A stretch of 57,837 nt of DNA from a virus: positions 1 through 57,837 of IMG/VR virus record IMGVR_UViG_3300000553_000044; one strand, 5' to 3'. Positions 17,639-53,301 of the stretch are shown here, piece after piece (within the stretch, counting starts at the first letter, position 1; each line of letters begins with the position of its first letter). A program made the position numbers and the translations under genes. The notes below the pieces were generated by a model, which did not search any database, was not told where the DNA came from, and saw nothing but the letters and a program-made list of their open reading frames with translations.

Positions 17639-17681
17639 TATACTAACAGATTATATGCATAATACCCACATACATACTAAC
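17639..17681 (-). promoter_or_regulatory. Regulatory region ahead of the lysis genes: two GTTAGTATG-type motifs
   Basis: In the 124-base gap between the 121-aa gene and the lysis cassette, CATACTAAC (17673-17681) and TATACTAAC (17639-17647) lie as direct repeats. Read on the minus strand, the first is followed seven to eight bases later by TATTAT and then by a perfect TATAAT. The motif itself then occupies roughly the -35 position for that TATAAT, and no TTGACA is present. A lysis promoter controlled through the motif is inferred. Confidence 0.5.
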
Positions 17682-17687
17682 AAATAG

Positions 17688-18053
17688 TTATGCAGATGGT
17701 ACAGATATGTCTGGAGTAGGTGCTATTGATTCTATTACTGGAACCCAAGGAATAGGCAATTGAACAATTGGAGGATTCTTTTTAAGTGCTAAAGCAGCGT
17801 CTAAAGATGCTTCAAGTGTAGGTACGTCTAATTTAGCTTGCACCCAACCAATAACCTCAGATTCAGTAAGAGTTGAATACGGCTTAAATGAGGCTGCATC
17901 AGGTGCTTCAAAGCTAACAGAACCATATGATCCTACAAAATCAGTTCCATCTGTGCAATCAACTAGGTAATGCGCTGTTACTACTACGTCAACTAATCCA
18001 TCTACGGATTTAGCTGTATCGAGTGCTGCAATTTTATATGTGTATGTGTTCAT
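17688..18053 (-). CDS. Hypothetical tail-fibre-associated protein
   Basis: A 121-residue protein, mostly beta-rich in the first 70 residues (TYKIAALDTAKSVDGLVDVVVTAHYL) with a Pro-rich C-terminus. It starts two bases after the stop of the large S74 fibre. Small proteins of this kind are common directly downstream of S74-type fibres in environmental phages, where they may act in fibre assembly. I do not recognise a characterised family with confidence. Confidence 0.65.
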   Translation of the reverse strand: MNTYTYKIAALDTAKSVDGLVDVVVTAHYLVDCTDGTDFVGSYGSVSFEAPDAASFKPYSTLTESEVIGWVQAKLDVPTLEASLDAALALKKNPPIVQLPIPWVPVIESIAPTPDISVPSA

Positions 18054-18054
18054 A

Positions 18055-20751
18055 TTATTTTCCTTCTAGTGCAGTTAAGCGAGTTGTTAAGTCTGTGATT
18101 AAGGCTTGTTGCTCTTGGATTGCCGCTGTGAGAGTAGCTACTAAAAATGATGTATCAATTCCCTGGTAAATTGGTTTTCCTTCAGTATCTACAGCATCCT
18201 TTTCTCCTGTTACGCAATCAGGAACTATAGCTTGCAATTCGTGGGCAATAAAACCTTGACCTTTTGAGCCATCAGTTTTCCAGCTATAAGTTACTGGTTT
18301 AAGTTGTTGCACTACATTCAATGCATTTTGCATTGGTAATACATTTTCTTTTAATCTATAGTCTGATGATGTATTGAAAGCAGTAGTGCTTCCACCAGAA
18401 GTTATTGTTCCAACAGTTCCATTTGGGTTTACAAAACCAATTTGCGCTGTACTTGTTGTTGAATTACAAATAACTGCTATGCCTGCACTTGTTCCGTTTG
18501 TTGATGGAACTTGTAGAGGGCATGTACCAATTGCTCCATCAGCATAAGCGGTTGTTCTTTGGATTAATACATGACCACCAGAGTCAATACGCATACGTTC
18601 GTTCCAAACGCCAGCACCATAATTCCAAAACTGTAGATTACCTAAGCCTGCTTGAATTGCTATAGTATTGTTGGCAGCGCCATCAGAAAAGGTAATGTTA
18701 GGAGCATTTTGAATTGTAGTGGCAGAGGTAGAGCGATTAATTGCTATATCTTTAGTTGTGTCGGTAGAAGCATAACCTTGAACAGTAAGCCTGCCGTTTG
18801 CTGTAGTGCCGCCAATTAAAACGTTACCAGAAGCATCAATACGCATTCTCTCAGATGCACCAACGCCAAATGCTGTAAATGCAGCAGAGTTTGTTTCATT
18901 GTTGTTTAAATAAAAACCGCCGCTACGATACTTGATAATATCAACTACAGCAGACCCAGTATTTGCTACATTAGATGTTATTAAGCGTAAATCAACAGCT
19001 CCAGTACCTGTGTCAGAGTTGTAAATATCAAAATAACGTGCAGTATTAGGAGCTGTTGCAGTATTGCCAATTTGAATATTTCCGCTATAGTCAATATTCA
19101 TCCTACCAGTATTAGCAGTGCCAAATGCTAAGTATCCAGTAGCAGAAGCTGCTCCTTGAATATAACTAACATTAGAACTAGCATTTCCAGTATTGTTATT
19201 AAATATTAATGCACTTAAATTATCAGATGCTCTACCACGCATTTGAATTGCAGGACTTCCTGATGTTGCTAATACATCTAATGTGTAACTAGGGTTTGTG
19301 ACCCCAATACCCACATTACCAGAGGAGTCAATACGCATCCGTTCGGCGTTGGATGTTCCAAAAGTTAATGGAATGGCATTGTATGTTTTTAAATTAAAAA
19401 CGCCAGTAGCATTGTCTGAATAAACAACAGAACCTCCACCGCCAGCAGCACTAGATGTAATCATCCATAAATTGCCATCATTTGATGCAGTTCTTAATAC
19501 TGCAGTTGCGGATGAACCTGTGTTGCTATTTTGTACTACTGTTGATAAGGTAGAATTTGCAGAAGTTGCAATAGAAATATTACCTGCATTATCAATACGC
19601 ATACGTTCTGTAGGTGTATCAGTAGTACTTGTACCAGTTAAAAACCGCATTGACCATGATCTGGGTGTAGTATCGCCACCATTCGCACCGTACTCAATAG
19701 CACCAGAATAGCGAGTTCCATAATCTGTTCCTGCCCAGTTATTGGAAAATGTAGACCCAAAAGTAATTCTGGAATCTTGACCTAAAGATCCTCCTGCTGG
19801 ACCGATAGATAAATTATTGTTTGTACCTACAGTAGTTCCAGAAACGATTGCTAATCCAGTAGCTAATGAGCTTGGAGTAGTAGTACCAATTCCAACAACC
19901 CCAGCAGCATCAATACGCATACGCTCGGTATTAGCAGAGCCATTATAAAAATATAAAACGCCATTTGAATCGCTTGCTATTCTTGACGTTTGAACTGAGT
20001 TTACTAAAAAATCTAAATAAGCTGCGTTTCCAGTTGCAGAGTTTATAGACAGGTCGGCATAACCAGTAGGAGAATTAATTGCAAATGTTGTATTAGAGCC
20101 TAACCCTAAAGAGGCTTTTTGAGTTTGTGCAAAATCTCTGTAAATAATTCCTGACGCATCAAAATAATTATTTCCGTTGCCCAAGTAATCCAATGTAAAT
20201 CTACTTGCTACACCATTAATAACGACAGCCGTTGTTGAGGCCGTTGCTTGTGTTACTGTGAGCTTTCCTGCTGCTGTGGTAGTTCCAATACCTACGTTAC
20301 CACTTGTATCAATACGAAGTCTTTCGCTACCGCCTGTGTACATTGTTAGTGGTAGGTATGTGCCTGTTCCACGAATCAATGAAGAAATCCGTGAGTCTGA
20401 ACCACCAACAACTATCATTTGTACTTCTGAACCATTTGTTGCTGCTGAATCTGATAATGCGCTTAAGCCAGCATTAGTCGATGTTCCATTTGGAATAATA
20501 AAAAATGTAGTTTGTCCATTGACGGTACTTGTTTGAAATGCAGCACGACTAGCTATAGTAGTGTTACTAAAATCACCAGTAATACGGTTACTAGTTCCAG
20601 TAAAGGTTAGGTTTCCTGAATCAGTAATCCCTGCAAAAGACGGGCTAGCCCCCGATTGATATTTATCAGCGTTTAAATTGCTAAAGTTAGTATCTAACTC
20701 AGTATTTGTAAGGGGGCTTCCCTTTGTATTCCGCAGTACTATCGTGGACAT
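18055..20751 (-). CDS. Tail fibre/spike with S74 intramolecular chaperone
   Basis: An 898-residue protein. The N-terminus (LRNTKGSPLTNTELDTNFSNLN) is a common fibre anchor motif. Residues about 140-780 hold around ten copies of ERMRID-[SA]-[SA]-G-N-[VI]-x-I-G-x-T, each separated by 50-80 variable residues, giving a trimeric beta-structured shaft. The C-terminal about 100 residues (SDYRLKENVLPMQNAL, GFIAHELQAIVPDCVTGEKDAVD, then a coiled coil) are a complete S74 chaperone, with the expected SDxRLKxN start that is the self-cleavage site in the family. It should be released as an autoprocessed trimer on the virion. Confidence 0.92.
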   Translation of the reverse strand: MSTIVLRNTKGSPLTNTELDTNFSNLNADKYQSGASPSFAGITDSGNLTFTGTSNRITGDFSNTTIASRAAFQTSTVNGQTTFFIIPNGTSTNAGLSALSDSAATNGSEVQMIVVGGSDSRISSLIRGTGTYLPLTMYTGGSERLRIDTSGNVGIGTTTAAGKLTVTQATASTTAVVINGVASRFTLDYLGNGNNYFDASGIIYRDFAQTQKASLGLGSNTTFAINSPTGYADLSINSATGNAAYLDFLVNSVQTSRIASDSNGVLYFYNGSANTERMRIDAAGVVGIGTTTPSSLATGLAIVSGTTVGTNNNLSIGPAGGSLGQDSRITFGSTFSNNWAGTDYGTRYSGAIEYGANGGDTTPRSWSMRFLTGTSTTDTPTERMRIDNAGNISIATSANSTLSTVVQNSNTGSSATAVLRTASNDGNLWMITSSAAGGGGSVVYSDNATGVFNLKTYNAIPLTFGTSNAERMRIDSSGNVGIGVTNPSYTLDVLATSGSPAIQMRGRASDNLSALIFNNNTGNASSNVSYIQGAASATGYLAFGTANTGRMNIDYSGNIQIGNTATAPNTARYFDIYNSDTGTGAVDLRLITSNVANTGSAVVDIIKYRSGGFYLNNNETNSAAFTAFGVGASERMRIDASGNVLIGGTTANGRLTVQGYASTDTTKDIAINRSTSATTIQNAPNITFSDGAANNTIAIQAGLGNLQFWNYGAGVWNERMRIDSGGHVLIQRTTAYADGAIGTCPLQVPSTNGTSAGIAVICNSTTSTAQIGFVNPNGTVGTITSGGSTTAFNTSSDYRLKENVLPMQNALNVVQQLKPVTYSWKTDGSKGQGFIAHELQAIVPDCVTGEKDAVDTEGKPIYQGIDTSFLVATLTAAIQEQQALITDLTTRLTALEGK

Positions 20752-20767
20752 AAAAACCCTAGTCTAA

Positions 20768-21217
20768 TTAAGATACTGTTACTGTCCAAGTTACTGTCAT
20801 CGAGTCGCCAGATTGTTTGTTTACTACTGGGAATACGGTATGGCAAAGCATTGTTCCTGCACTAGCAGCATTGAAAATACCAGCTTCAGTAATTGCCCCA
20901 GTACCTACACCTGCTCCAAAAGTAGCAACATAAGTAATAGTGTTAGTTAGCACAGTAGTAGAGATAAGCACTACACGGCTACTAGCAATCTCAGCACCTA
21001 AAGCAGTATCAGCGGCAACGGCAGCTGTAGCTGATGTTCCAACACTCATATTAGACATCGCTGTAGCAGTTGCATCTTTCATTCTGCTAACGATATAGTT
21101 TAGACCTGTTGAAACAACTAAGTTTTTAAAGTCATGTGTTTCACGGATTTTTCCATCAGAGCCTGTAAGAACTACTTGGAGCTCTCCGTTAAATTTTAAT
21201 TTTTCGATTTGTTGCAT
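20768..21217 (-). CDS. Hypothetical tail/fibre structural protein
   Basis: A 149-residue protein. It begins with a beta-rich segment (LKFNGELQVVLTGSDGKI) and contains ITEAGIFNAASAGTMLCHTVFP, a motif seen in phage tail proteins near fibre genes. Ala/Thr-rich central repeats and no cysteine cluster or membrane segment. It lies between two fibre-type genes. Probably a minor tail or fibre-base component; family not named. Confidence 0.65.
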   Translation of the reverse strand: MQQIEKLKFNGELQVVLTGSDGKIRETHDFKNLVVSTGLNYIVSRMKDATATAMSNMSVGTSATAAVAADTALGAEIASSRVVLISTTVLTNTITYVATFGAGVGTGAITEAGIFNAASAGTMLCHTVFPVVNKQSGDSMTVTWTVTVS

Positions 21218-21229
21218 TTTTAAACCTTA

Positions 21230-22315
21230 TTAAAAAGATTGCGATGAGCCTACATAGTCACTAGCAAAATATGAAATATCACAATAGCCTGTTATTACCA
21301 AAAAACCATTGTCAATTTTACTAACTGAATCTGTTAGTTGTTTCCCACTAATAATAACGCTAAAATCGCTTTTTAGCACGGATTCTGCGGATATTTTTCC
21401 ATATGCTAGTGAGGGATCATCATCCAATAGTGCAAGGTGTGTATATAGATCTGCAGGATGAACTAACTCAGTAAAAGTCTTGCTTATTAAAAATGTCTTT
21501 TGCTCTGCTGTTATTGAAGCGTCTGTAAAAGGTTTAGTAGTAGATGTAGTATGAAATTCATTAGTACTAGCTGCATCAACACTTTTCTTTGCGTAGTTAC
21601 TTATAGCAGTATCTGATTTTGAAAACAGTTCAGAAAAACTCTTAGATACACCTAAGGACAATAGTTCTAAAGTACTAGAAGCATCATCTAACGGCTCTTT
21701 TGTATTTCGTATAAAGCTAACAAGCTCACTAGTCTGAGCAGCATCGGAAAGTAATTTATTAAATAAACGTACGCTAGACTCACTAGTAGTTGTTGTATCT
21801 ATAGATACTTTAGAAGATTGTTTTTTTGCTAACTCAGAGCTAGTGGAGCTATCGTTTAATTTCTTACTATTAAAAACATATGCACGTTCTATAGTTGTAG
21901 AGTAATCAGTAGAAGATTTACCTATGGCTAATAACCTACTTTCTGAAGTATTAGCAGGGTCAGCAACTGGTTTAATAAGACTAGATTTTTTTAGATCTAA
22001 TGTGTTTGCGCTATCACTATTTACTTTTTTTAGGGCAATAACACTAATATCAGCTTTAGCTAAAATATCAAAAAGACGCTTATTTACTCCAAGTATAGAG
22101 GTATCGAGTGCATACTTAATATCGATAATAACGGGGTTACGGCCAATCGGATCAGGCTCAGCCATGACCGTCATCAATACGCAGCTTAGCTTAGCTATAG
22201 GAATTAAATAGCTTGTAGTAGCTAAAAACTCATTATGTTCTGCGTTTGCTACTGGTACTTCGATGTATACCGATGCAGCAATTCCGCTTGAAATAGCGCC
22301 TGAGCCAACGGCCAT
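21230..22315 (-). CDS. Structural protein with degenerate internal repeats
   Basis: A 361-residue Ser/Thr/Lys-rich protein. From about residue 85 to 290 it carries repeated units of the form K-x-[LF]-x-[DE]-x-[ASD]-x-[TS]-[ST]-E, such as DDASSTLELLSLGVSKSF and DAASTNEFHTTSTTKPF, each about 30 residues. The C-terminus GYCDISYFASDYVGSSQSF is a conserved ending of tail proteins in freshwater and marine phages (G-Y-C-D-x-x-Y-F-A-x-D-Y-V-G). Probably part of the tail or fibre attachment complex. Confidence 0.65.
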   Translation of the reverse strand: MAVGSGAISSGIAASVYIEVPVANAEHNEFLATTSYLIPIAKLSCVLMTVMAEPDPIGRNPVIIDIKYALDTSILGVNKRLFDILAKADISVIALKKVNSDSANTLDLKKSSLIKPVADPANTSESRLLAIGKSSTDYSTTIERAYVFNSKKLNDSSTSSELAKKQSSKVSIDTTTTSESSVRLFNKLLSDAAQTSELVSFIRNTKEPLDDASSTLELLSLGVSKSFSELFSKSDTAISNYAKKSVDAASTNEFHTTSTTKPFTDASITAEQKTFLISKTFTELVHPADLYTHLALLDDDPSLAYGKISAESVLKSDFSVIISGKQLTDSVSKIDNGFLVITGYCDISYFASDYVGSSQSF

Positions 22316-24652: not shown

Positions 24653-24670
24653 ATATTCCAATAGTCAAAG

Positions 24671-24690
24671 CAAGGGCCGAAGCCCTGCTT
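24671..24690 (-). terminator. Hairpin with UUCG loop after the capsid-region genes
   Basis: On the minus strand AGCAGGGC-TTCG-GCCCTTGCT folds into a GC-rich stem with a TTCG tetraloop and one bulge, followed by TTTGACT. It lies between the 83-aa gene and the adaptor genes. It resembles the partial terminator placed after the capsid gene in T7-type phages, which lowers expression of downstream tail genes. Position and fold are seen; function is inferred. Confidence 0.55.
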
Positions 24691-24691
24691 A

Positions 24692-27011: not shown

Positions 27012-27026
27012 ATTCCTATCTCCTTC

Positions 27027-27084
27027 GCGCCGACTACGTTCATTGCGCCGACTTTACGGTCTGCTCTGTTCGATACGGTCTGCT
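27027..27084. repeat. Two interleaved pairs of short direct repeats
   Basis: In the 111-base gap between scaffold and the 76-aa gene, GCGCCGACT occurs at 27027-27035 and 27045-27053 (18-base period) and TACGGTCTGCT at 27055-27065 and 27074-27084 (19-base period). ACTAAC at about 27106 and GTTAGC near 27122 form a nearby inverted pair related to the phage-wide motif. It may be a regulatory region for scaffold and capsid. No convincing -10/-35 pair is seen. Confidence 0.45.
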
Positions 27085-27122
27085 ACTTTGTTAACTTCAA
27101 AAATGACTAACTTTCTTTACAG

Positions 27123-27353: not shown

Positions 27354-27536
27354 TTACTTGCACAAGCCTGTAGTTTTTGCAGATTCAACAGCAATTTCTT
27401 TACCACTACGCTTGAGTTCACCAAATACTTTTGAACCACCACCGTTAGTGCTGCCTTTACACATACCATCAGTTTTTGCTGTTTCTACGGCAATTTCTTT
27501 ACCGCCACGCTTTAAAGTACTAAAAATCTCAGCCAT
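27354..27536 (-). CDS. 60-aa protein made of two tandem repeats
   Basis: Two copies of a unit of about 27 residues, pattern F-[SG]-x-L-K-R-[GS]-G-K-E-I-A-V-E-[TS]-A-K-T-x-G-[ML]-C-K, joined by a Gly-rich linker (GSTNGGGS). Both end in Gly-x-Cys-Lys. AAAGGAG precedes the ATG. A duplicated, basic, single-cysteine module in the head region suggests a minor virion or DNA-binding protein. No known family is recognised. Confidence 0.7.
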   Translation of the reverse strand: MAEIFSTLKRGGKEIAVETAKTDGMCKGSTNGGGSKVFGELKRSGKEIAVESAKTTGLCK

Positions 27537-27546
27537 TTTGGGCTCC

Positions 27547-27605
27547 TTTATATAGGGTACATACTAACATAATTACTTTTTAACACTCTGTTAGTAACTT
27601 GTCAA
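27547..27605 (-). promoter_or_regulatory. Promoter/operator region between portal and scaffold genes
   Basis: On the minus strand TTGACA (27600-27605) includes the TGA stop of the portal gene. One base later GTTACTAAC (27590-27598) occupies the spacer, and 17 bases after the -35 comes TAAAAA. A second motif, GTTAGTATG (27560-27568), lies further downstream, followed by TATAAA (27547-27552) close to the ribosome site. This matches the layout ahead of the portal gene. The promoter is inferred; the -10 is weak. Confidence 0.5.
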
Positions 27606-29773: not shown

Positions 29774-29802
29774 AATATACCTCTTACATACTAACACGTC
29801 AA
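29774..29802 (-). promoter_or_regulatory. Promoter ahead of the portal gene with motif in the spacer
   Basis: On the minus strand TTGACG (29797-29802) is followed by exactly 17 bases and TATATT (29774-29779), a good sigma-70 arrangement. The TGA of the -35 is the stop codon of the large terminase. GTTAGTATG (29787-29795) starts one base after the -35 and fills positions 2-10 of the spacer. This is where a repressor or spacer-binding activator would act. Regulation through the motif is inferred. Confidence 0.6.
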
Positions 29803-31208: not shown

Positions 31209-31754
31209 TTATTCATCAGCAACCTTTTTCTTTTTTGCTTTAGGTTTAACTTCTTCGATCATCTTTACGTCATCGACATGTTTTGCCAGTGTGTCGATTG
31301 TTTGCGATTTTTTCGACAAATCGCCATGAGTGCCTAAGTTAATCGTTACTGAAAAGCCCTGCCCTGCTACATTCGCTTGTACTTGGGGCTTAGGTTCCAT
31401 ATCTCCAAGCTTTGCTCCGAACTTCAATACTTCCAGCTTTTGCATCAGTGTCGAGTCATTACTTTTGGCTATGCGATAAACATCGTCATAGAGGTCCTCA
31501 GTGAGTGCTCTGACCTTCGTACGGAATGTGTAACCCGATGCCTCGAACTCTGCTCTTTGCTTCGCTACAGCGTCTAAAAATGGCTTCCATGTGGATAGCT
31601 GCTCCCACTTCGGCCCTTCAAACCCATAACGTGATGCTATTTCTTTAGGCTCCTCCATCCCCGTGGCCATTGCAAGCACCATTTCTGCGGGGATATCGAG
31701 CGGCACTGCCAGTCTTTGAGGCAGGTACTCTACTTCGTCTTCACTTCTTGACAT
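31209..31754 (-). CDS. terS: Terminase small subunit-like protein
   Basis: Read from the ATG at 31754 (181 residues); the longer frame begins with TTG. The N-terminal half has an HTH-like pattern (VLAMATGMEEPKEIASRYGFEGPKWEQL), then a helical part (LTEDLYDDVYRIAKSNDSTLMQKLEVLKFGAKLGDM), a beta-like GFSVTINLG, and a very basic C-terminus (KPKAKKKK). This is the domain order of DNA-recognising small terminases, and it is next to the large subunit. Sequence similarity among small subunits is low, so the call leans on position. Confidence 0.8.
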   Translation of the reverse strand: MSRSEDEVEYLPQRLAVPLDIPAEMVLAMATGMEEPKEIASRYGFEGPKWEQLSTWKPFLDAVAKQRAEFEASGYTFRTKVRALTEDLYDDVYRIAKSNDSTLMQKLEVLKFGAKLGDMEPKPQVQANVAGQGFSVTINLGTHGDLSKKSQTIDTLAKHVDDVKMIEEVKPKAKKKKVADE

Positions 31755-31890
31755 CAAGATCTAAGCTCTTAGTCAGCATTTGACGAATCACTTCACTAAT
31801 GGTCATTTGCTTAGCCATAGCTTGGTGTTGTAACCCTTCCCAAATGCGATCTGGCAAAAAGAAATTATGCCGTTTCATTGGAGTACTCAT
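31741..31890 (-). CDS. Ribbon-helix-helix DNA-binding protein (49 aa)
   Basis: A short frame of 49 codons. It reads MSTPMKRHNFFLPDRIWEGL at the N-terminus, then helices AMAKQMTISEVIRQML and a final TKSLDLDVKK. The KRHNFFLP strand followed by two helices with T-[IV]-S-E-[VL]-I-R is the Arc/MetJ/CopG ribbon-helix-helix pattern at its usual length. Its ATG overlaps the preceding TAA (TAATG) and its stop overlaps the small-terminase start by 14 bases, which argues for a real coupled gene. RHH dimers bind short repeated half-sites, so it is a good candidate reader of the CATACTAAC motif. Confidence 0.8.
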   Translation of the reverse strand: MSTPMKRHNFFLPDRIWEGLQHQAMAKQMTISEVIRQMLTKSLDLDVKK

Positions 31891-32090: not shown

Positions 32091-32264
32091 TTATTTACGT
32101 TTTGTGGTTTTTACTGCGGGTTTCTTTACAACTGCTTTTTTCACTGCAGGTTTGCGTTTAACTTCAACCTTTGGTGTAGCAGGTGCTGGGGCTAATGCTG
32201 GAATAGAAGGCTTAACTACGCCTACAGGAGTTGCTTTAAAAAGCCCTACAAGTTTCTTTAGCAT
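32091..32264 (-). CDS. Basic Lys/Ala/Pro-rich 57-aa protein
   Basis: A short frame from ATG 32264 to TAA 32091. It starts MLKKLVGLFKATPVG and continues with Pro/Ala-rich, then Lys/Val/Pro-rich sequence (KPAVKKAVVKKPAVK) resembling histone H1-like tails. Its ATG lies inside the end of the upstream gene (7-base overlap), with CTAAAGGC as ribosome site. Possibly a DNA-condensing or nucleoid-binding phage protein. No family is recognised beyond composition. Confidence 0.6.
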   Translation of the reverse strand: MLKKLVGLFKATPVGVVKPSIPALAPAPATPKVEVKRKPAVKKAVVKKPAVKTTKRK

Positions 32265-32413
32265 TTTTTGCCTTTAGGAGCTGGGAACTTAGGGCTTTTC
32301 TCGCCTTCAGCTTTCTCACCCTTTAAATAAGCCTTTTTGCCTACTTTTAACTCTGTTTTTTCTTCTTTTTTGCTCTCTTTACCAGCAAAAATCTTCTTCA
32401 AATTCACAGCCAT
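32258..32413 (-). CDS. Small Lys-rich hypothetical protein (51 aa)
   Basis: Read from the ATG at 32413, which has AAAGGAG seven bases upstream, rather than 32452, which would start inside the regulatory motif. The protein (MAVNLKKIFAGKESKKEEKT onwards) is Lys/Glu/Gly-rich with a Pro-Ala-Pro-Lys C-terminus ending in Lys-Lys-Cys. It is first of a run of small genes leading to the terminases. Function unknown. Confidence 0.65.
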   Translation of the reverse strand: MAVNLKKIFAGKESKKEEKTELKVGKKAYLKGEKAEGEKSPKFPAPKGKKC

Positions 32414-32441: not shown

Positions 32442-32470
32442 CATGTTAGCATGTTTTACAACAGAATCAA
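32442..32470 (-). promoter_or_regulatory. Motif-bearing promoter candidate downstream of the HNH gene
   Basis: On the minus strand TTGATT (32465-32470) contains the TGA stop of the HNH gene. After 16 bases comes TAACAT, which overlaps a CATGCTAAC motif (complement of 32445-32453). It lies ahead of the 51-aa gene. The motif position differs from the other promoters, covering the -10 rather than the spacer start. Promoter strength is doubtful. Confidence 0.4.
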
Positions 32471-33269: not shown

Positions 33270-33394
33270 GCCGCTATGTTAGCTTGTTTCTATGCAGTTT
33301 GTTAGTAGTTACCCTAATATTTTTAGGTACGAATTACTCCGGTATGAAATCTTCCGGTTTTTTGGTAGTTTTGCGAACAACCTGTATGTCTACC

Positions 33395-33889
33395 CTACGC
33401 ATGCCAGTTATTACTCTTCTTAATATTTTCTTTAGCTGGGATAACTTGAAGGTTCCAGGGGACATGAAGGCCACAAACCGTTTTACCTCTTAAAGGCACT
33501 ATGTGGTCCACGTGGTACTCAACGCCAGTTGCCTGTTGTTCTTCTTTTGCCTTTCTATAAACTACTCTAATTTCTTTTTTATGCTGCTCTGTTAACCACG
33601 GTGGGGTTCGTTTTAGCTCTGCGCATTTACGGGTCTTTCTCTGCGCAGCCTGTTTGTCTGGGTTCTTTTCGATATATCTTCTCTTTGAGGCTGCCACTTT
33701 ATCTGGGTTAGCTCGTTTCCATTTGCGTTTTGTCTCTCTAATTTTGTCAGGGTTTAACACTTTATACTGCTTCGCTTTTAAAGCTTTACATTGCCTACAA
33801 TCAGATCTAAGCCCGTCTTTTGTGTCTTTTTGCTTAGAGAATTCTATAGTTAGTTTTGGTGTTTTACACCTAGAGCATGTTTTATACAT
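33395..33889 (-). CDS. HNH endonuclease, first leftward gene
   Basis: A 164-residue protein. The N-terminal zinc ribbon has CSRC and CRQC pairs (residues about 5-36). A Lys/Arg-rich linker of N-P-D-K repeats follows (NPDKIRETKRKWKRANPDK), then the HNH core VDHIVPLRGKTVCGLHVPWN, ending with the LQVIPAKENIKKSN segment. The ATG at 33889 lies within the first half of a 20-bp inverted repeat and has no ribosome site, so translation may be leaderless or repressed by whatever binds there. No later ATG precedes the zinc ribbon. Confidence 0.88.
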   Translation of the reverse strand: MYKTCSRCKTPKLTIEFSKQKDTKDGLRSDCRQCKALKAKQYKVLNPDKIRETKRKWKRANPDKVAASKRRYIEKNPDKQAAQRKTRKCAELKRTPPWLTEQHKKEIRVVYRKAKEEQQATGVEYHVDHIVPLRGKTVCGLHVPWNLQVIPAKENIKKSNNWHA

Positions 33890-33906
33890 ACTAACATGTT
33901 AGCATG
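33887..33906. promoter_or_regulatory. 20-bp inverted repeat of the motif over the HNH start codon
   Basis: CATACTAAC (33887-33895), the dinucleotide AT, then GTTAGCATG (33898-33906) form an inverted repeat with one mismatch. It is the most symmetrical copy of the phage-wide motif and shows it is a half-site. The HNH start codon is inside it, so bound protein should block expression of the leftward leading gene. Confidence 0.6.
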
Positions 33907-34042
33907 TGTTTGGTATTTTAAGGTGAGTATGCGTATATAGAACGTGTGTATGTACCTAAAAAATAGGAATCGCACTATTGCCAATACGTAAAGCCACCCC
34001 CCACGCATACCAGTCTAGCGCCACCCCCTGTACCCTCCTTAC

Positions 34043-35133: not shown

Positions 35134-35492
35134 CAATAATTGAGGTTTTAGGGGTCATATTATTCCACAATAAATGCACTTTCCTTATTCCATAAGGCCT
35201 AGCGGGTTGTAATAATTGAATTATTGAATAATTGATGTAAATGTATATGTTACGTGTGAGACGTGTTGAGTTATTGCGTGGTGTTTTTGCTTGCACTTGG
35301 GACTTCCACGAATTCTCAGATATGGGGATACCCTTTCGAAAAACTCAATAATTCAATTATTGTATACACACGTTCACGACATAGCCTTATCCATCATGCC
35401 TCACAGGGCGATTTGTAATAATTGAGCATTTCCCCCTCATTCAATAATTGCACCACTACATTTCAATAATTACCCCATCCACGCAATAACTT
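35134..35492. repeat. Iteron-like cluster of AATAATT words (candidate replication origin)
   Basis: Within about 360 gene-free bases, CAATAATT or its complement occurs about ten times: 35134-35143, 35211-35219, 35219-35228, 35226-35235, 35346-35362 (an inverted pair), 35417-35425, 35442-35450, 35464-35472, with weaker CAATAA copies near 35271 and 35484. Consensus is (C/T)AATAATTGA. The copies are in both orientations with AT-rich stretches between, and one TTATCCA near 35388 partly resembles a DnaA box. An origin or a multi-site regulator-binding region are the options. Confidence 0.55.
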
Positions 35493-35580: not shown

Positions 35581-35612
35581 CCTACTAACATACATACAAT
35601 TAACTTACTAAC
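35581..35612 (+). promoter_or_regulatory. Two degenerate motif copies ahead of the small early genes
   Basis: CCTACTAAC (35581-35589) and CTTACTAAC (35604-35612) lie 23 bases apart as direct repeats, with TACATAC between. The second ends next to AAGGTGAG, the ribosome site of the 44-aa gene. This places the phage-wide motif at the start of the rightward small-gene operon. No clear -35 is visible. Confidence 0.4.
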
Positions 35613-35623: not shown

Positions 35624-35758
35624 ATGACTAACAAACATAGCATTTCATACACACAACTACGTAACGAGGAATGGATAGCAACCCGAAATCAGTTGGCAGT
35701 ATGGGTAGGTTTGACCGCAGTTCTATTTATGGGGATATATATCGGGGTGAATATATGA
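35624..35758 (+). CDS. Small single-TM protein (44 aa)
   Basis: A short frame, MTNKHSISYTQLRNEEWIAT followed by RNQLAVWVGL and a hydrophobic stretch (about residues 27-42, TAVLFMGIYIGV). AAGGTGAGAAG precedes the ATG and its TGA overlaps the next ATG (ATGA). One TM helix near the C-terminus suggests a small inner-membrane protein. Such early phage peptides may affect host membrane proteins; no function can be assigned. Confidence 0.6.
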   Translation: MTNKHSISYTQLRNEEWIATRNQLAVWVGLTAVLFMGIYIGVNI

Positions 35759-35952
35759 AAGCCCAAGTTAATGCCAAACATAATGCCCGAGTTAATACCC
35801 CATTACATCAGTCCCACCAATATTTCTGCACCGAATGTGTAGGTGGTTTAGTTAGTAAGTTAATGGTAGAAACCTTCAACAAAGCCAAGATGAAGCCATT
35901 ATGTAATGCCTGTTTTAACCATAAATACCCTGAACACTTAATAACGGAGTAA
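35755..35952 (+). CDS. Small zinc-finger protein (65 aa)
   Basis: Read from the ATG at 35755, coupled to the TM gene by an ATGA overlap; the longer frame from 35671 runs through that gene in another phase. The sequence has HQYFCTECVGGLVSKLMVE and, 25 residues later, CNACFNHKYPEHL: two C-x-x-C pairs that fit a single structural zinc. It could be an RNA- or protein-binding finger. No characterised relative is recognised. Confidence 0.65.
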   Translation: MKAQVNAKHNARVNTPLHQSHQYFCTECVGGLVSKLMVETFNKAKMKPLCNACFNHKYPEHLITE

Positions 35953-40562: not shown

Positions 40563-40734
40563 CAAGCAAAGACGCAAGCTAGGCAGAAAGCATAAAGAAA
40601 ATATCCGTATGTTACGGATAGTTAATAGGTTAGAAGGCGGGGATGGTTTTAATGCATTTACTAACTATGAAATAGCAAGAGATCAAGTATTTATGAAATC
40701 AATGGGCTTAATACAAAAGGTTAAATTCACATGA
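40555..40734 (+). CDS. Small basic protein (59 aa)
   Basis: A short frame starting GTG at 40555 (8-base overlap with the preceding gene) and ending TGA at 40734, overlapping the next ATG (ATGA). It opens MNSKQRRKLGRKHKENIRML and is strongly basic in the first 22 residues, then has ...DGFNAFTNYEIARD. It may bind nucleic acid. The overlap on both sides supports it as a gene. Confidence 0.55.
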   Translation: MNSKQRRKLGRKHKENIRMLRIVNRLEGGDGFNAFTNYEIARDQVFMKSMGLIQKVKFT

Positions 40735-41849
40735 GACAAGCAACGAAGTTAGATAAAGCAAAAGTAGCTATTGGCTTAGATGCGCCATTTTTCGCCTCGA
40801 TTTTGTACAAGCGTAAGTTAGTTGCTCGTAATGATATCCCTACCCTAGCGGTATCGGATCGTGGAACTATTTATTACAACGAAGAATTCATTGAGTCTTT
40901 ACCAGTACAGCAGATTGTATGGGGTTTAGCGCATGAAGTCGGACACGTCATTAACCAGACTGCACTACGCCAAGGCAAGCGTGACCATAAGAAGTGGAAC
41001 TATGCGACTGATGCTTGGATCAACGACACGTTAGATGAGTGCGGTGTAGGTCAGCGTATCCCAAACTGTATTGATATGAAAGGCTCAAAAGATAAGACCT
41101 CTGAGCAAATCTATGACGAGTTACCTGATATGCCTAATGGTGGTGGTAGCTATATGGATGGTGATGGTATGGGCGATGATGTAATTATCGAAGGTAGTCC
41201 CATGACTGAATCAGAGATGGCTGAGGCTGAAGGTCAGATGAAAGTTGAGTTGGCAGAAGCTGCACAAGTTGCCAAGATGCGTGGCAAGCTCCCAGGTAAG
41301 TTAGCCCAGTTCGTTAACGACCGTATCAATTCCAAGATTCCTTGGTATGAGCACCTCGAGAAATACATGACTGGCTTAACTGCGTCTGATTACACATGGA
41401 CACGTCCTAACCGTCGTCATATCGGGGCTGGTGTATACATGCCATCAACAGGCAAAGTACCTACTATGGGTGAGTTAGCTATTCAAGTAGACATTAGCGG
41501 TTCAATTAGTAAGCAAGAGATCGCTCATTACAACGGACACCTGAAACGTATTGTCGAGCAATGCACACCTGAGAAAGTCCACGTTATTTACACCGATACT
41601 CAAGTACAAAAGTATGAGGTATTTGATGCTGGTGAAGAGATCGAGATCAAGTTCTATTCAGGCGGTGGCACTTGTATGGAGAACGGCTTTAAATACTTAG
41701 AAGAAAACGGTATAAATCCGTTAGTATGTGTTACACTAACCGATGGGTTCGATAGTTACACAGAAGCTCCTAACTTCAATACAGTCTGGTGTGTAAGTAG
41801 CGACCAAGTACCCCCGTATGGGGATGTTATTCACTTTGATATGGATTAG
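40731..41849 (+). CDS. Zincin-like peptidase with C-terminal VWA domain (DUF2201-like)
   Basis: A 372-residue protein. An HEVGH zinc site (HExxH, near residue 68-72) lies in WGLAHEVGHVINQT, followed by DAWINDTL as the expected downstream Asp. An acidic Gly-rich linker (about 145-175) leads to a VWA-like domain starting near residue 250, with MIDAS DISGSIS (about 254-260) and later TDGFDSY. This is the DUF2201 putative metallopeptidase architecture, which pairs with MoxR ATPases. Together they probably cleave or remodel a specific target; the target is unknown. Confidence 0.88.
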   Translation: MRQATKLDKAKVAIGLDAPFFASILYKRKLVARNDIPTLAVSDRGTIYYNEEFIESLPVQQIVWGLAHEVGHVINQTALRQGKRDHKKWNYATDAWINDTLDECGVGQRIPNCIDMKGSKDKTSEQIYDELPDMPNGGGSYMDGDGMGDDVIIEGSPMTESEMAEAEGQMKVELAEAAQVAKMRGKLPGKLAQFVNDRINSKIPWYEHLEKYMTGLTASDYTWTRPNRRHIGAGVYMPSTGKVPTMGELAIQVDISGSISKQEIAHYNGHLKRIVEQCTPEKVHVIYTDTQVQKYEVFDAGEEIEIKFYSGGGTCMENGFKYLEENGINPLVCVTLTDGFDSYTEAPNFNTVWCVSSDQVPPYGDVIHFDMD

Positions 41850-43928: not shown

Positions 43929-44552
43929 ATGGCATACGTAGCAATTAGCGGTAACTTAGAAGAACGCACAAAAGATATTATTTCAGCAATGCGTAGAGCT
44001 GAAGTTGAATCAATTCCAAAATATGAACCCGTTATGTCAGTTGATAGTGACTTTATCAATCGGACTGTATGGAAAGAATATTTACACCTTAAAACTCAGA
44101 TGCCTGGGAAATGGTTACATAGCACAGAAAATATCAATGTAGAATTTAAAGTTGGCGAAAAAACAGCTACTCATGGTTTTAAGATGGCTTCTCCGTACCT
44201 TATTCCGCCACGTGTAGCTCCATACCAAGTACATGAAATCCCTGACACCGAAACAGACCCTGAGTTTTTGAATTGTCTTAGATACTATAGCGTACTACTA
44301 GAGATACATGCACGGTGGAATAAGGTAGATAAAGATGTTCGTAACTTTCTTAACTCTTGTAAGTCACTAAACGAAGCTGTGAAGTTATGGCCAGATGTAA
44401 CCATGTATATCGATCCTGAAGATATTAACCGTATGGGTGTTAAACGTGAGAAAGCCCGTGAGTCTGAGGCCTTAGCTGCCCTTGCTAGTATGGATACCGA
44501 TATGTTGGTAGGTGCAGCAGTAATCTCTCGTATGTCACAAGCAGCAGCATGA
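43929..44552 (+). CDS. Nucleotide-modification-associated-like protein (Nmad5-like)
   Basis: A 207-residue protein. ERTKDIISAMRRAE, a W-x-x-x-x-[ST]-x-x-[IN] beta region, and the C-terminal V-x-N-F-L-N-S-C-K-S-L-N-E-A-V-K-L-W-P-D-V-x-x-[YF]-I pattern resemble the Nmad5 family (putative nucleotide modification associated domain 5). The assignment is from memory of that pattern and only moderate. The ATG follows GGGAAAGATC. It precedes the sigma-like gene with a 4-base overlap. Confidence 0.6.
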   Translation: MAYVAISGNLEERTKDIISAMRRAEVESIPKYEPVMSVDSDFINRTVWKEYLHLKTQMPGKWLHSTENINVEFKVGEKTATHGFKMASPYLIPPRVAPYQVHEIPDTETDPEFLNCLRYYSVLLEIHARWNKVDKDVRNFLNSCKSLNEAVKLWPDVTMYIDPEDINRMGVKREKARESEALAALASMDTDMLVGAAVISRMSQAAA

Positions 44553-44722
44553 AAACAAGAACCCGAGCCAAGCCAACTAGCGATTACGCAATGACCTGGG
44601 ATGAAGTAGCAGAAGCCCTAAGTATTAACCAAAGTACTGTTGGGGATACAGAGAAACGTGCAATAGCTAAAGTTAGGAAGATATTTGAAGAACGTGGAAT
44701 ACGATTGGAGGACTTACTATGA
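44549..44722 (+). CDS. Stand-alone sigma-70 region 4-like HTH (57 aa)
   Basis: A short frame, ATG 44549 to TGA 44722. The core MTWDEVAEALSINQSTVGDT followed by EKRAIAKVRKIFEERGI aligns with sigma-70 region 4.2, whose pattern is T-L-x-E-[VI]-[AG]-x-x-[LF]-x-[VI]-[ST]-x-x-x-[IV]-x-x-x-E-x-[KR]-A-[LI]-x-K-[LV]-R. No region 2 or 3 is present. Such a mini-domain could bind the -35 DNA or the RNA polymerase beta flap and redirect transcription. It overlaps both neighbours by four bases. Confidence 0.75.
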   Translation: MKTRTRAKPTSDYAMTWDEVAEALSINQSTVGDTEKRAIAKVRKIFEERGIRLEDLL

Positions 44723-45385: not shown

Positions 45386-45435
45386 TTGCATACATACTAA
45401 CAATGTAATAACATACATACCCTACACATACTAAC
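45386..45435 (+). promoter_or_regulatory. Promoter/operator with two exact motif copies
   Basis: TTGCAT (45386-45391), a 17-base spacer and TAACAT (45409-45414) form a weak promoter. CATACTAAC (45393-45401) starts one base after the -35, the same place as in the portal promoter but in the other orientation relative to transcription. A second exact copy is at 45427-45435, next to the gene start at 45443, with ACATACATAC between them. Confidence 0.5.
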
Positions 45436-45442: not shown

Positions 45443-45871
45443 ATGACTACCGTAAAAGAAACAAACCCGAAGGATATCGTAGGAACCTCTAAGGCGCCAA
45501 TGAGTACTGTAAGCGCACCTGTCATAGCGGAAATCGGTGTAGCCATGCTAGAAGGAGCTTGTAAGTATGGAAGGCATAACTATAGAGCTGTAGGAGTTAG
45601 AGCATCGGTGTACTACGACGCAACCATGAGGCACTTAATGGACTGGTGGGAAGGACAAGACATCGATCCTGATAGCGGTATGAGCCACGTAACAAAAGCT
45701 ATTACATCGTTAGTAGTACTTAGAGACGCAATGATTCAAAACATGGTAACAGACGATAGACCACCAAGTAGTCAAGACTTCTATGTTGAACTTAATAAGA
45801 AGGCCGCAGCAATCATCGAGAAGTACAAAGATAAGTCACCAAGACATTACACGATAGAGGATACGAAATGA
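45443..45871 (+). CDS. dATP/dGTP diphosphohydrolase-like protein (DUF5664)
   Basis: A 142-residue protein. NPKDIVGTSKAPMSTVSAPV, then MLEGACKYGRHNYRAVGVRAS, MRHLMDWWEGQDIDPDSGMS and HVTKAITSLVVLRDA match the DUF5664 family, annotated as N-terminal dATP/dGTP diphosphohydrolase. The helical, MazG-like pattern (K-Y-G-x-x-N-[YF], R-H-x-x-x-[WY]-x-x-G, D-x-x-[ST]-x-x-x-H-x-x-[KH]-A) supports nucleotide binding. It may adjust the dNTP pool during replication. It heads its own transcription unit. Confidence 0.8.
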   Translation: MTTVKETNPKDIVGTSKAPMSTVSAPVIAEIGVAMLEGACKYGRHNYRAVGVRASVYYDATMRHLMDWWEGQDIDPDSGMSHVTKAITSLVVLRDAMIQNMVTDDRPPSSQDFYVELNKKAAAIIEKYKDKSPRHYTIEDTK

Positions 45872-46345: not shown

Positions 46346-46347
46346 AA

Positions 46348-48956: not shown

Positions 48957-48992
48957 ACGTGTGTATATGTATGTGAGCAGCTACTAGCGTAC

Positions 48993-49009
48993 ATAGGGAT
49001 CTTCCCTAT
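48993..49009 (+). terminator. Weak hairpin after DNA polymerase
   Basis: ATAGGGA (48993-48999), loop TCT, TCCCTAT (49003-49009): a perfect 7-bp stem in the 130-base gap after the polymerase stop. The following bases (CTAGCTATTTATG) are only partly T-rich. It may slow transcription or stabilise the polymerase mRNA. Confidence 0.4.
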
Positions 49010-49086
49010 CTAGCTATTTATGTGCGTATGTTTGCGGTAGGATGTCGTAAGAAGTTTTAATTTTTATAGATAGTGGAGGTATACCA

Positions 49087-49698: not shown

Positions 49699-49736
49699 GT
49701 AAGTAACATGTAGTTCTGTTAGTAAGTAAGCAGTAG

Positions 49737-49762
49737 CCCCAAGCATATTCCATGTCTTGGGG
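49737..49762 (+). terminator. Rho-independent-type terminator
   Basis: CCCCAAG (49737-49743) and CTTGGGG (49756-49762) form a 7-bp stem with a 12-base loop, followed by TATTTACTTT. The ATG at 49752 lies in the loop, which supports the later start (49782) for the next gene. Confidence 0.55.
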
Positions 49763-49781
49763 TATTTACTTTGGGGTGATT

Positions 49782-50432
49782 ATGGCAATACCATCATGGA
49801 CGTACTCGCAATTAGAGGCATATGAGACTTGTCCTAAGAAGTTCTACCACCTTAGGGTGCTTAAAGACTTCAAAGATCCACCAAATGAGTATTCTGCATG
49901 GGGTGAACGAGTTCATACAGCACTAGAGAATCGAATTAAAGACGGCACACCACTACCTGACGGGATGACTCAATGGGAAGGGATAGCAGGAAAGTTAGAA
50001 GCCCTCCCAGGAGAGAAACTAACTGAGCATAAGATGGCAGTAGATAGTGCATTTCAGCCAGCAGATTGGAAGCAAGCATGGTCACGAGGAATTATTGACT
50101 TGTTAGTAGTACATGGTAAGAAAGCAGTTGTAGCAGACCATAAAACAGGTAAACGTAAGATGACTGAGCAGTTAGAACTTTATGCTGGGTATGTTTTTTC
50201 GCATTATCCAGAGGTTGAAGAAGTAACTTCTTGCTTTATTTGGTTGAAAGAGAAACGAATAGATAAACAAACATACTCACGAGAAGATGTGTATAGTATC
50301 TGGAAGGGTTTTTTACCGAGAGTGACGAAGTTAGAGTCATCGTATGAAAGAGACAGCTGGTTAGCCCGTCCAAGCGGATTATGTAAGGGTTGGTGCCCAG
50401 TAACAAGCTGTGAATTTAATTCGAGGAAGTAG
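49782..50432 (+). CDS. PD-(D/E)XK nuclease, RecB/Cas4-like
   Basis: From ATG 49782 (216 residues, TTTGGGGTGATT upstream). The N-terminus PSWTYSQLEAYETCPKKFYH is the [ST]-x-S-x-[LI]-x-x-[FY]-x-x-C-P-x-x-[FY] start of the PDDEXK_1 family. Active-site residues are GERVHTALE (His), GIIDLLVV (Asp) and VVADHKTGK (D-x-K). C-terminal cysteines (about residues 203 and 211, CKGWCPVTSC) with the first Cys may hold an iron-sulfur cluster as in Cas4 and AddB. It should be a DNA exonuclease in recombination. Confidence 0.88.
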   Translation: MAIPSWTYSQLEAYETCPKKFYHLRVLKDFKDPPNEYSAWGERVHTALENRIKDGTPLPDGMTQWEGIAGKLEALPGEKLTEHKMAVDSAFQPADWKQAWSRGIIDLLVVHGKKAVVADHKTGKRKMTEQLELYAGYVFSHYPEVEEVTSCFIWLKEKRIDKQTYSREDVYSIWKGFLPRVTKLESSYERDSWLARPSGLCKGWCPVTSCEFNSRK

Positions 50433-50464
50433 CAAACTAACAAGAAGGATGAGGAACTTTTAGT

Positions 50465-50737
50465 ATGAATTACACAGAATTTGCTGTCTTAGATGATGAA
50501 GAACTGATATCGTTTACCCTTACACAAGCTAACGTAAGTAACTTAGAAATAGAGTTAGCGCAAAGAATGGGTGTATTACTCGATATGGTGAGCGAATTCC
50601 AACAAGAAATTGAAGTGGAAATATTTAGTACGAATAATGCAATTATTGAGATTGATGAGATTAAAGCTAATTGCCAGCTTGAATTAGGAAGGTTGTATGA
50701 GCAAGACCCCAGAAGCAAGAGTAAAAGATTCAGTTAA
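50465..50737 (+). CDS. Hypothetical acidic coiled protein (90 aa)
   Basis: A 90-residue acidic helical protein (AVLDDEELISFTLTQANVSN; IELAQRMGVLLDMVSEFQQE). The start follows AAGGATGAGGAACTTTTAGT. Its 3-prime end overlaps the VRR-NUC gene by 41 bases. Possibly a partner of that nuclease. Unrecognised. Confidence 0.6.
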   Translation: MNYTEFAVLDDEELISFTLTQANVSNLEIELAQRMGVLLDMVSEFQQEIEVEIFSTNNAIIEIDEIKANCQLELGRLYEQDPRSKSKRFS

Positions 50738-51035
50738 AAAAGAACTAGACAGTAGAGGGTTCTGGAAAGCAGGAGCAGCAAAACCAGTTACTGTTAGTGG
50801 GTGGTACTACATGCCAGTTAGTAATGGTATGGGAACCCACGGGATTCCCGACTTCGTTTGTTGTTGGTTAGGTAAGTTTTTCTCTATCGAGACCAAGGCA
50901 CCAGGAGGTAAACCAACACCAAACCAGTTAAAGAGACATGAAGAAATACAAGAAGCTGGTGGGGAAGTATTAGTAATCGATGATGTTAGTAACTTAAGGA
51001 AGTTTTTCGATGGCGGACATAGCAGATCTAGCTAA
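50697..51035 (+). CDS. VRR-NUC domain endonuclease
   Basis: A 112-residue protein, the size of phage-type single-domain VRR-NUC nucleases. PEARVKDSVKKELDSRGFWK is the N-terminal helix with catalytic Glu; GTHGIPDFVCCWLGKFFSIETKA holds the G-x-P-D and E-x-K residues; the final QEAGGEVLVIDDVSNLRKFF is the usual C-terminus. It probably cuts branched DNA (Holliday or flap structures). It is coupled to genes on both sides by long overlaps. Confidence 0.92.
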   Translation: MSKTPEARVKDSVKKELDSRGFWKAGAAKPVTVSGWYYMPVSNGMGTHGIPDFVCCWLGKFFSIETKAPGGKPTPNQLKRHEEIQEAGGEVLVIDDVSNLRKFFDGGHSRSS

Positions 51036-51207
51036 CGAACAAGTAGCAAAGCTAGAAGAATTGGCAATGCGAAAGTTCCGAGCAGAGAAACATAGATTAA
51101 AGGCTGAGCACACTGGTAAGTGTCTCAATTGTGAAGAGGTTGTCGACCCACCTAAAAGATGGTGTGATACCGATTGCCGAAATGACTGGGAGAGGAGAAG
51201 TAAATGA
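51010..51207 (+). CDS. Small zinc-finger protein (65 aa)
   Basis: A 65-residue protein. After a helix (ADLANEQVAKLEELAMRKFR) comes CLNCEEVVDPPKRWCDTDCR: C-x-x-C ... C-x-x-x-C, which would bind one zinc, with an acidic/aromatic end (NDWERR). Similar phage proteins have a C-T-x-C-x-x-x-[IV] ... R-[WF]-C-x-x-x-C-[RA] pattern and unknown roles. It overlaps the VRR-NUC and HNH-like genes. Confidence 0.75.
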   Translation: MADIADLANEQVAKLEELAMRKFRAEKHRLKAEHTGKCLNCEEVVDPPKRWCDTDCRNDWERRSK

Positions 51208-51470
51208 GTAATAAAGGAAGCGCAGCTAAGCAAGCGTACGATAAAGCATACGAAGCAAAGCCAGACCAAGTTAAAAAGCGTGAAGAACGTAACAAGGCTA
51301 GAGCTACATTAGCTAAAGAAGGCATTGTGCGTAAAGGTGATGGTAAAGATGTAGACCATAAAAAGATGCTTGATGCAGGAGGTACTAACAGCAGATCAAA
51401 TATGCGAGCAGTATCAGCTACCGAGAATCGTGGTTGGAGAAAAGACCACCCTAAAACGTATGGCAAATAA
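51204..51470 (+). CDS. Small HNH-like endonuclease-type protein (88 aa)
   Basis: An 88-residue, Lys/Ala/Arg-rich protein. GDGKDVDHKKMLDAGGTNSR and SNMRAVSATENRGWRKDHP keep the D-H and N-x-R-x-V-x-x-x-x-N elements of HNH nucleases but without Cys pairs. It is often annotated as HNH in phages. The final catalytic His is not certain (DHPK). Active nuclease or a relic; the order next to the zinc-finger gene is conserved-looking. Confidence 0.7.
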   Translation: MSNKGSAAKQAYDKAYEAKPDQVKKREERNKARATLAKEGIVRKGDGKDVDHKKMLDAGGTNSRSNMRAVSATENRGWRKDHPKTYGK

Positions 51471-51714
51471 ATCTAGTAGCTTTTTATTAAATTACCCGTA
51501 TTACCATAGAGTACCAGAAGATCACTACTTTACATTTTTTGGGTGTAAGTTTGATAATATTGAGTCGATTTCAGAAGCAGTAAGCCCTGAGACTTTATGT
51601 AGATGCTTTCATTGGCAAACACGTACAGGTGAAGTTCATAAGTATAAATTCCAACAAGAAGGTAATCATATGGACGATATAAATGCTCTAATGGTTATGC
51701 TAAGGATGAGTTAA
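51460..51714 (+). CDS. Hypothetical protein (84 aa)
   Basis: Read from the ATG at 51460 (overlap of 11 bases); the frame from 51370 would overlap the HNH-like gene by 100 bases. It contains YPYYHRVPEDHYFTFFGCKF and ETLCRCFHWQTRTGEVHKYK, aromatic and Cys/His-rich. Its stop overlaps the helicase start by one base. Not recognised. Confidence 0.55.
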   Translation: MANKSSSFLLNYPYYHRVPEDHYFTFFGCKFDNIESISEAVSPETLCRCFHWQTRTGEVHKYKFQQEGNHMDDINALMVMLRMS

Positions 51715-53276
51715 TGGCTACGATACTGCGAGATAAAAAGGCAGTTATATTTAAGTTGCGTCAGCCTGAACGGATTACTACAGTAATTCCAACGGCTAAG
51801 TTAGTAAAGCATAAGGGGGATACCCTTGTAGCTGTGCCTCATCGTCCAGATGAAACAAGAGTATTACGGTCTTTAGGTTTCGATGTACCTGATCCAATGA
51901 ATTACTACTATGACTGGCCAGGAAGGTTTAAACCTTTTGATGCTCAGGTCGAGACAGCTAGTTTCTTGGCAATGAATGATCGTGGGTTCTGCCTTAATTC
52001 AATGGGACTAGGTAAGACAGTTACATCCCTATGGGCTTATGACTACCTACTAAAAGCCAAGCAAGTGAGAAGTGCTTTAATTGTTTGCCCTCTTTCTACT
52101 ATGGAGAGAACATGGGCTGACGAAGTATTTAAGACATTCCCTCACTTAGATTACACAGTACTCTACGGCACACGAGACAGAAGGCTAAAGCTACTTAAGC
52201 AAAAGTCCCATGTTTACATTATCAATACTGATGGATTAAAGATTATTGAAGATGCTCTAGCTGAGCGTGACGATATCGACCTGATTATTGTTGATGAGAT
52301 TGCCATGTTCCGTAACGGTTCAACAGATCGCTGGAAGACACTAAATACGATTGCTAATAAGCAGACACCCCGTAAGGTGTGGGGTTTAACTGGTATGCCA
52401 ACTCCTAACTTACCTACTGATGCTTGGGCTCAATGCCGGGTTGTAGTACCGACAAGTCTTGATGTACCTAAATATTTTGGTAAGTTTAGAGATATGACTA
52501 TGGATAAGCGTAGCCAGTACAAGTGGGAGATTAAGCCTAATGCTAATGATGTAGTAGCAAAGATGCTTCAACCGTCTATCCGTTTTGCATTAGATGACTG
52601 TATTGACTTACCTGAACAGATCTTTATTAACCGTGATGCCCAACTAAGCGATGAACAGCGTAAAGCCTACAAGGACATGTTGTCTAAGCTAGCCACCGAA
52701 TATGAAGGTGGTCAGATCCTTGCAGTAAACGAAGCCGTGAAAGCCAATAAGCTAGTACAGATTGCCTGTGGAGTTGCGTATGCCCATGGAGGGGAGCAGG
52801 TGATACTGCCAGCCCAAGATAGGATGAACGTGCTTAAGGAGCTCATAGAAGAGTCCGAAGGTAAGGTAATTGTGTTTGTGCCGCTTACTGGTGTACTTGA
52901 ACACCTGGCTGCTGAACTCGGTAAGTACTGGACAGTAGAAGTCGTGCACGGTGAGACTAAGAAGACAGAACGAGATAGGATCTTTAGCGAGTTCCAAACT
53001 ACCCCTAACCCCCATATTCTGATTGCTAACCCAGCAACCATGAGTCATGGATTAACTTTAACCACAGCTACCAACATTATTTGGTACGCCCCTATCCATT
53101 CAAATGACATCTATAGTCAGGCGAACGCTAGGGTAAGAAGGCCAGGGCAGAAGCGTACTACGGTAATTGCCCACATTGCAGCATCAGAGATCGAGCGGCG
53201 CATATACGCACGACTGAAAGATAAACAACATATGCAGGGAATTCTTTTAGACCTCATGAAAGATGGAATCCCTTGA
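51714..53276 (+). CDS. SNF2-type DNA helicase/translocase
   Basis: A 520-residue superfamily 2 protein of minimal SNF2 type. Motif I is SMGLGKT (about 96-102), motif II VDEIAMF (about 192-198, DEIA in place of DEAH), motif III GLTGMPTPN, and the C-terminal lobe ends with QANARVRRPGQKRT (motif VI, near 472). ALIVCPLSTMERTW is motif Ia. No extra domain is fused. It probably remodels protein-DNA complexes or replication forks. The VRR-NUC gene upstream is a common genomic partner. Confidence 0.93.
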   Translation: MATILRDKKAVIFKLRQPERITTVIPTAKLVKHKGDTLVAVPHRPDETRVLRSLGFDVPDPMNYYYDWPGRFKPFDAQVETASFLAMNDRGFCLNSMGLGKTVTSLWAYDYLLKAKQVRSALIVCPLSTMERTWADEVFKTFPHLDYTVLYGTRDRRLKLLKQKSHVYIINTDGLKIIEDALAERDDIDLIIVDEIAMFRNGSTDRWKTLNTIANKQTPRKVWGLTGMPTPNLPTDAWAQCRVVVPTSLDVPKYFGKFRDMTMDKRSQYKWEIKPNANDVVAKMLQPSIRFALDDCIDLPEQIFINRDAQLSDEQRKAYKDMLSKLATEYEGGQILAVNEAVKANKLVQIACGVAYAHGGEQVILPAQDRMNVLKELIEESEGKVIVFVPLTGVLEHLAAELGKYWTVEVVHGETKKTERDRIFSEFQTTPNPHILIANPATMSHGLTLTTATNIIWYAPIHSNDIYSQANARVRRPGQKRTTVIAHIAASEIERRIYARLKDKQHMQGILLDLMKDGIP

Positions 53277-53301
53277 CAACTACTAAGAAACATACTAACC
53301 T
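53273..53301 (+). promoter_or_regulatory. Promoter candidate overlapping the helicase stop
   Basis: TTGACA (53273-53278) contains the TGA stop of the helicase. After 17 bases comes TAACCT (53296-53301), a poor -10. The spacer starts with ACTACTAAG and ends in the exact CATACTAAC copy (53291-53299), which covers the -10. It would drive the 128-aa, SSB-like and primase genes. Confidence 0.45.

Follow-up and report, generated by a model that had tools for sequence, protein, structure and literature searches.

What does a short word do that recurs in the gaps between genes on both arms of a phage genome? A first-pass annotation of the window (the whole stretch of DNA that was analyzed, 57,837 bases) had described CATACTAAC as a phage-wide intergenic motif and had read it as the target of one regulator acting on early and late genes. 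The phage, a freshwater bacterial virus, is a member of the HMO-2011-type group. Its portal protein matched those of Roseobacter CRP, Pelagibacter HTVC033P, and Puniceispirillum phages (best matches over 80-85% of the length, 27-38% identity), and some of these portal-matching phages are classed as HMO-2011-type (PMC9038755). Searches of viral contigs recovered loci whose portal and helicase identities were ~44-77% and 49-74%, respectively. None of the papers searched dealt with promoters or operators in HMO-2011-type phages, and a search for the word brought up nothing but eukaryotic, primer, or clinical texts of no relevance.

Eight exact copies of CATACTAAC were found in the window, with 0.84 expected and none of 100 dinucleotide-preserving shuffles reaching the observed number. 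Seven lay in the 2,403 intergenic bases and one in the ~55 kb of genes, as delimited by simple gene predictions made in this analysis (161-fold enrichment; Fisher P = 1.6e-9); the equal density in coding sequence that the first-pass annotation had named as telling against its motif was therefore not seen. The core TACTAACA was found 12 times in gaps and 7 times in genes (40-fold; P = 1e-12), and CATACTAAC read backward, as a control, occurred in neither the gaps nor the genes of the window. When the gaps were simulated 1,000 times with a first-order Markov model, no 9-mer had more than six copies, so the post hoc choice of the word does not account for its enrichment. A free expectation-maximization search for a wider consensus was set aside, having drifted to a CWWACWWAC pattern with a period of 4.

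Sequence searches recovered all seven exact copies and all listed near copies at the positions given before, together with additional intergenic near copies at 33300, 49718, and 50433. The word is not strictly intergenic, and not every gap has it. The eighth exact copy (41720..41728, minus strand), the only genic one, lies in the HNH gene 40731-41849, probably by chance, and the exact copy at 33887 overlaps the predicted start codon of open reading frame 33395-33889 by 3 nt. Copies are present on both arms, but only 9 of the 20 gaps of at least 30 nt hold the core TACTAAC, which is absent from the operon-internal gaps at 24653, 24944, 25994, and 27012. The plus strand reads CATACTAAC at all seven intergenic exact copies, regardless of the direction of the flanking genes, which is leftward on the left arm.

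Several sites could be placed relative to a predicted promoter. In four gaps (27537, 29747, 49699, and 53277), the best sigma70-type promoter has at most three mismatches to the consensus, with TTGAC, and all four contain the core. The portal promoter (TTGACG-TGTTAGTATGTAAGAGG-TATATT, minus strand) carries an exact copy in its spacer (29787..29795, plus). Within the gap at 27537, a near copy, GTTACTAAC (27590..27598, minus), lies inside the spacer of TTGACA-AGTTACTAACAGAGTGT-TAAAAA, opposite in orientation to the portal-promoter copy, and an exact copy (27560..27568, plus) begins 8 nt past the -10 hexamer of the promoter of leftward gene 27354-27536. A near copy, CTTACTAAC (49718..49726, minus), lies 8 nt past the -10 of TTGACA-16-TAACAT, ahead of gene 49752-50432, and an exact copy (53291..53299, plus) overlaps the -10 of TTGACA-17-TAACCT, ahead of gene 53326-53712. 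Another near copy, CATGCTAAC (32445..32453, minus), overlaps TAACAT, the putative -10 hexamer for leftward gene 32258-32413.

Promoter scores are poor at 17564 and 45382, and the copies there form direct pairs 34 bp apart. At the former, near copy TATACTAAC (17639..17647, plus) and an exact copy (17673..17681, plus) lie upstream of leftward gene 17282-17563, with its weak promoter TAGTAT-18-TATAAT; at the latter, one exact copy (45393..45401, plus) lies in the spacer of the weak promoter TTGCAT-17-TAACAT, and a second (45427..45435, plus) precedes gene 45443-45871 (dATP/dGTP diphosphohydrolase-like). Near copies CCTACTAAC (35581..35589, plus) and CTTACTAAC (35604..35612, plus), 23 bp apart, are upstream of the rightward early genes. 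Directly downstream of this pair, 35671-35952 encodes a 93-amino-acid protein with a zinc-finger-like CxxC...CNAC pattern and no relative among the genomes compared. The remaining sites are a near-palindrome, CATACTAACATGTTAGCATG (33887..33906), composed of an exact copy and an inverted near copy at the start of open reading frame 33395-33889; a core copy, TACTAACA (33300..33307, minus), in the gap 33270-33394; and an intergenic near copy, CAAACTAAC (50433..50441, plus).

The word proved to be a property of a small clade. Across ~2.8 Mb of relatives (two sets of 1.89 and 0.91 Mb that partly overlap in contigs, several of which are the same phage at ~100% identity and give no independent evidence), CATACTAAC was not enriched, with two intergenic and three coding copies in total, and a family-wide signal was rejected. 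In a portal tree, contig L006 was sister to the window phage (support 99/98), followed by L005 and L036 (95/90), in both of which the word is absent. L006 spans only 13 kb; its control region holds four exact copies and one core copy, including a direct pair at 6182/6216 that repeats the 34-bp spacing of 17639/17673 and 45393/45427. Its portal promoter has a core copy in the spacer, its counterpart of the 27536-gene promoter keeps a near copy (AGTAACTAACAAGATGT) at the same spacer position, and its 32413-gene promoter has GACTAACAT in the same place, with CTAACAT over the -10 as in the window. The portal proteins of the two phages are ~71% identical and the flanks and spacers have diverged, so the word outlives its surroundings. 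Being absent from nearly all relatives and kept at matching promoters in its sister, CATACTAAC is clade specific, and the expectation that it would recur at the same gaps in related genomes holds for L006 only. The analysis thus shows CATACTAAC to be a DNA word that is nonrandom, associated with promoters, and conserved within its clade.

A scan of the collection for two close full copies returned L006 and five other contigs. Among these, contigs L113 (3624-3690) and L116 have two tandem copies of TTGACATACTAACATTATAGTGTTAGTATAG, a palindrome of the same core, and TACTAACATTATAGTGTTAGTA twice, in a promoter-like gap; no homolog of window proteins was reported for these two contigs. Another candidate word, ACCTATCA in G002, G006, and G007, was rejected as not confined to gaps.

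The portal, 27536-gene, 49752-gene, and 53326-gene promoters are also present in relatives and so are likely to be real promoters independent of the motif; that of the portal gene is nearly universal among close relatives, with differing spacers. On them, the sites lie between -35 and -10, on the -10, or 8 nt beyond it, and in both orientations to transcription. Such mixed orientations and offsets argue for an operator; a core promoter element, serving an RNA polymerase or sigma factor of the phage, would be fixed in both and was rejected. We consider it probable, with some reserve, that CATACTAAC(A) is the operator of a single sequence-specific DNA-binding regulator, most likely a phage-encoded repressor, that acts on both arms. 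It would bind over the cores of sigma70-type promoters, whether in the spacer, on the -10, or immediately beyond the start site. Host RNA polymerase would thereby be blocked or delayed, and the early, replication, and structural operons may in this way be tuned together. We infer protein binding, a repressive effect, and a phage origin of the regulator. The first-pass proposal of one regulator for early and late genes thus stands as the simplest reading, with sites at structural, replication, and early sigma70-type promoters, but for this clade alone. Counting against this reading are the poor promoter scores at 17564 and 45382, the shortness of the L006 contig, and the use of lone asymmetric 9-10-mers without regular spacing, which is unusual for dimeric repressors (pairs in the window and L006 are 34, 34, and 23 bp apart or inverted, and 11 bp also occurs). 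Moreover, gaps are so few that sites and promoters could coincide in part simply because both are found there.

The sites might instead be bound by an activator or coactivator, by MotA-like sigma appropriation or similar, that switches on promoters at a set time. The weak hexamers at some copy-bearing promoters (17564, 45382, and 35581) would suit this, as would the isolated sigma-region-4-like protein that the phage encodes (57 amino acids, region 4 only; 44549..44722, plus), a candidate binder from its sequence, whose recognition helix has diverged from its relatives. However, activator boxes are usually fixed in offset and orientation, whereas here both vary and several copies lie on or past the -10; moreover, the best copy-bearing promoters come close to the consensus, and relatives have counterparts of them that lack the motif. 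We therefore regard activation as unlikely.

If the site is an operator, its binder may be among the small DNA-binding proteins of the phage. The HTH_17/excisionase-like protein encoded at 66..299 (minus; 77 amino acids), a weak candidate, could be a dual-purpose protein like Cox of P2 or Apl of 186, although we would not expect this to be right. It has a recognized helix-turn-helix (PF12728, 27.2 bits against a cutoff of 27), it was not found in the portal-set relatives searched or at the matching place in five relatives, and Apl is both excisionase and regulator (PMC7498355). On the other hand, its 52% homologs in two other phages (L282 and L283) lie beside a tyrosine integrase gene in the absence of the motif, and Apl recognizes direct repeats spaced by one helical turn, an arrangement not seen among the sites in the window. 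No integrase was recognized in the window alongside it. The earlier suggestion of a Fis-like binder survives as a weak lead, with the best profile score going to the excisionase-type HTH_17 family.

The ribbon-helix-helix (RHH) protein, also put forward before as a binder, is now disfavored. This 49-amino-acid protein (31741..31890, minus) is Arc-like by profile and present in both the window and L006. Arc binds between -35 and -10, and the spacer placement here recalls by analogy that of Arc at Pant, so that the RHH protein would act as Arc does in P22. Its recognition strand, MKRHNFFLP, is identical in G009, G010, G013, and G016, all without CATACTAAC enrichment, and reads RKNFYLP in the motif-bearing L006; because relatives that lack the word have almost the same strand, the protein is unlikely to explain it. 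Flanking helices could matter for recognition, but we hold this candidate to be quite unlikely. No regulator common to the window and L006 alone was found on the 13-kb L006 contig.

A further alternative is that the site is the target of a host regulator and that the phage taps into the regulon of its host, with variation among relatives following their hosts. A host regulon would explain why a small clade has a word to itself without an obvious repressor gene, yet CATACTAACA occurred no more often than its backward control across 100 genomes from the order of the closest metagenome-assembled contig found (Oxalobacteraceae), which may not be the order of the host, and we judge this explanation improbable. 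A TerL query against the bacterial genome collection gave no match. Most improbable is a replication, partition, or packaging signal in place of a transcription signal, for although iteron-like repeats flank most L006 copies, in the control region, those in the window are scattered over 36 kb, at promoters and outside the AATAATTGA array at 35135-35417. A role of the operator beyond transcription is possible, since the array of AATTATCCA-type repeats that contains most L006 copies is a possible replication origin.

An operator scattered in this way resembles several known systems in part. The operators and stoperators of cluster A mycobacteriophages (L5 and TipsytheTRex) are likewise short asymmetric sites spread genome-wide over promoters and short gaps, and their immunity specificity differs among related phages (PMC9283540, PMC6550527). 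L5-type sites are, however, 13-mers, more than 20 in number, whose orientation follows transcription and which are inactive when reversed, and their repressor is known, a protein of about 183 amino acids with a helix-turn-helix and a stoperator domain (PMC9283540, PMC6550527); the sites in the window have a core of 9-10 bp, number about 16, and are oriented independently of transcription. No repressor with a helix-turn-helix and stoperator domain was recognized in Pfam, PHROGs, and NCBIfam scans of most predicted proteins, and unannotated open reading frames remain. Cox and Apl share the use of short asymmetric promoter sites, and an excisionase-like helix-turn-helix protein is encoded in the window, but Apl binds its direct repeats in one switch region and att (PMC7498355), whereas the sites here are scattered. 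Since both the orientation rule of L5 and the spacing rule of Apl failed, the word was assigned to neither system. Arc of phage P22 is alike in spacer placement and in the Arc-like protein of this genome; the difference is that motif-free relatives retain the recognition strand of the RHH protein.

A second word showed the family-wide distribution that CATACTAAC lacks. (T)ATACACAC(G) was enriched in gaps of the 1.89-Mb set (ATACACACG, 70 intergenic versus 23 coding copies, 28-fold), in counts that include near-identical contigs and so overstate independence. It points with transcription in 83 of the 87 cases in which a downstream ortholog could be assigned and often lies ~45 nt upstream of orthologs of genes 49752 and 53326. 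(T)ATACACAC(G) may be a second regulatory element, common to the family, at several conserved promoters. In the window it occurs at 33951 (minus), 35364 (plus), 35647 (plus), and 48966 (minus), but the promoters of genes 49752 and 53326 have CATACTAAC-type sites instead.

Other noncoding features were also seen. Many relatives, and L006 as well, share a conserved block, TTACGTA...TTTTTAGG-ATACACAC (33951-34000, minus), upstream of the left arm. A cluster of AATAATTGA repeats (35135-35417), possibly a replication origin, lies near the GC-skew switch, and the matching region in relatives has a cluster with other units (AATTATCCA, AATATTCC, and CTATTATCC). A noncoding leader at 27012-27122 carries the repeats GCAGACCGT and GTCGG, which rank with the best-conserved intergenic words across the family; the RNA fold predicted for the leader was not stable (z = -0.17), and the leader had no Rfam match.

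An operator common to early and late promoters and scattered over the genome would offer a handle on gene timing in such a phage. We put forward tentatively, as a possibility short of an expectation, that the clade of the window phage and L006 kept its promoters but swapped the ATACACAC-type elements at several of them for CATACTAAC, and gained a new master regulator of both arms in a phage without recognizable lysogeny control. Such a clade-specific replacement over conserved promoters would allow the rewiring of regulation among close relatives to be put to the test.
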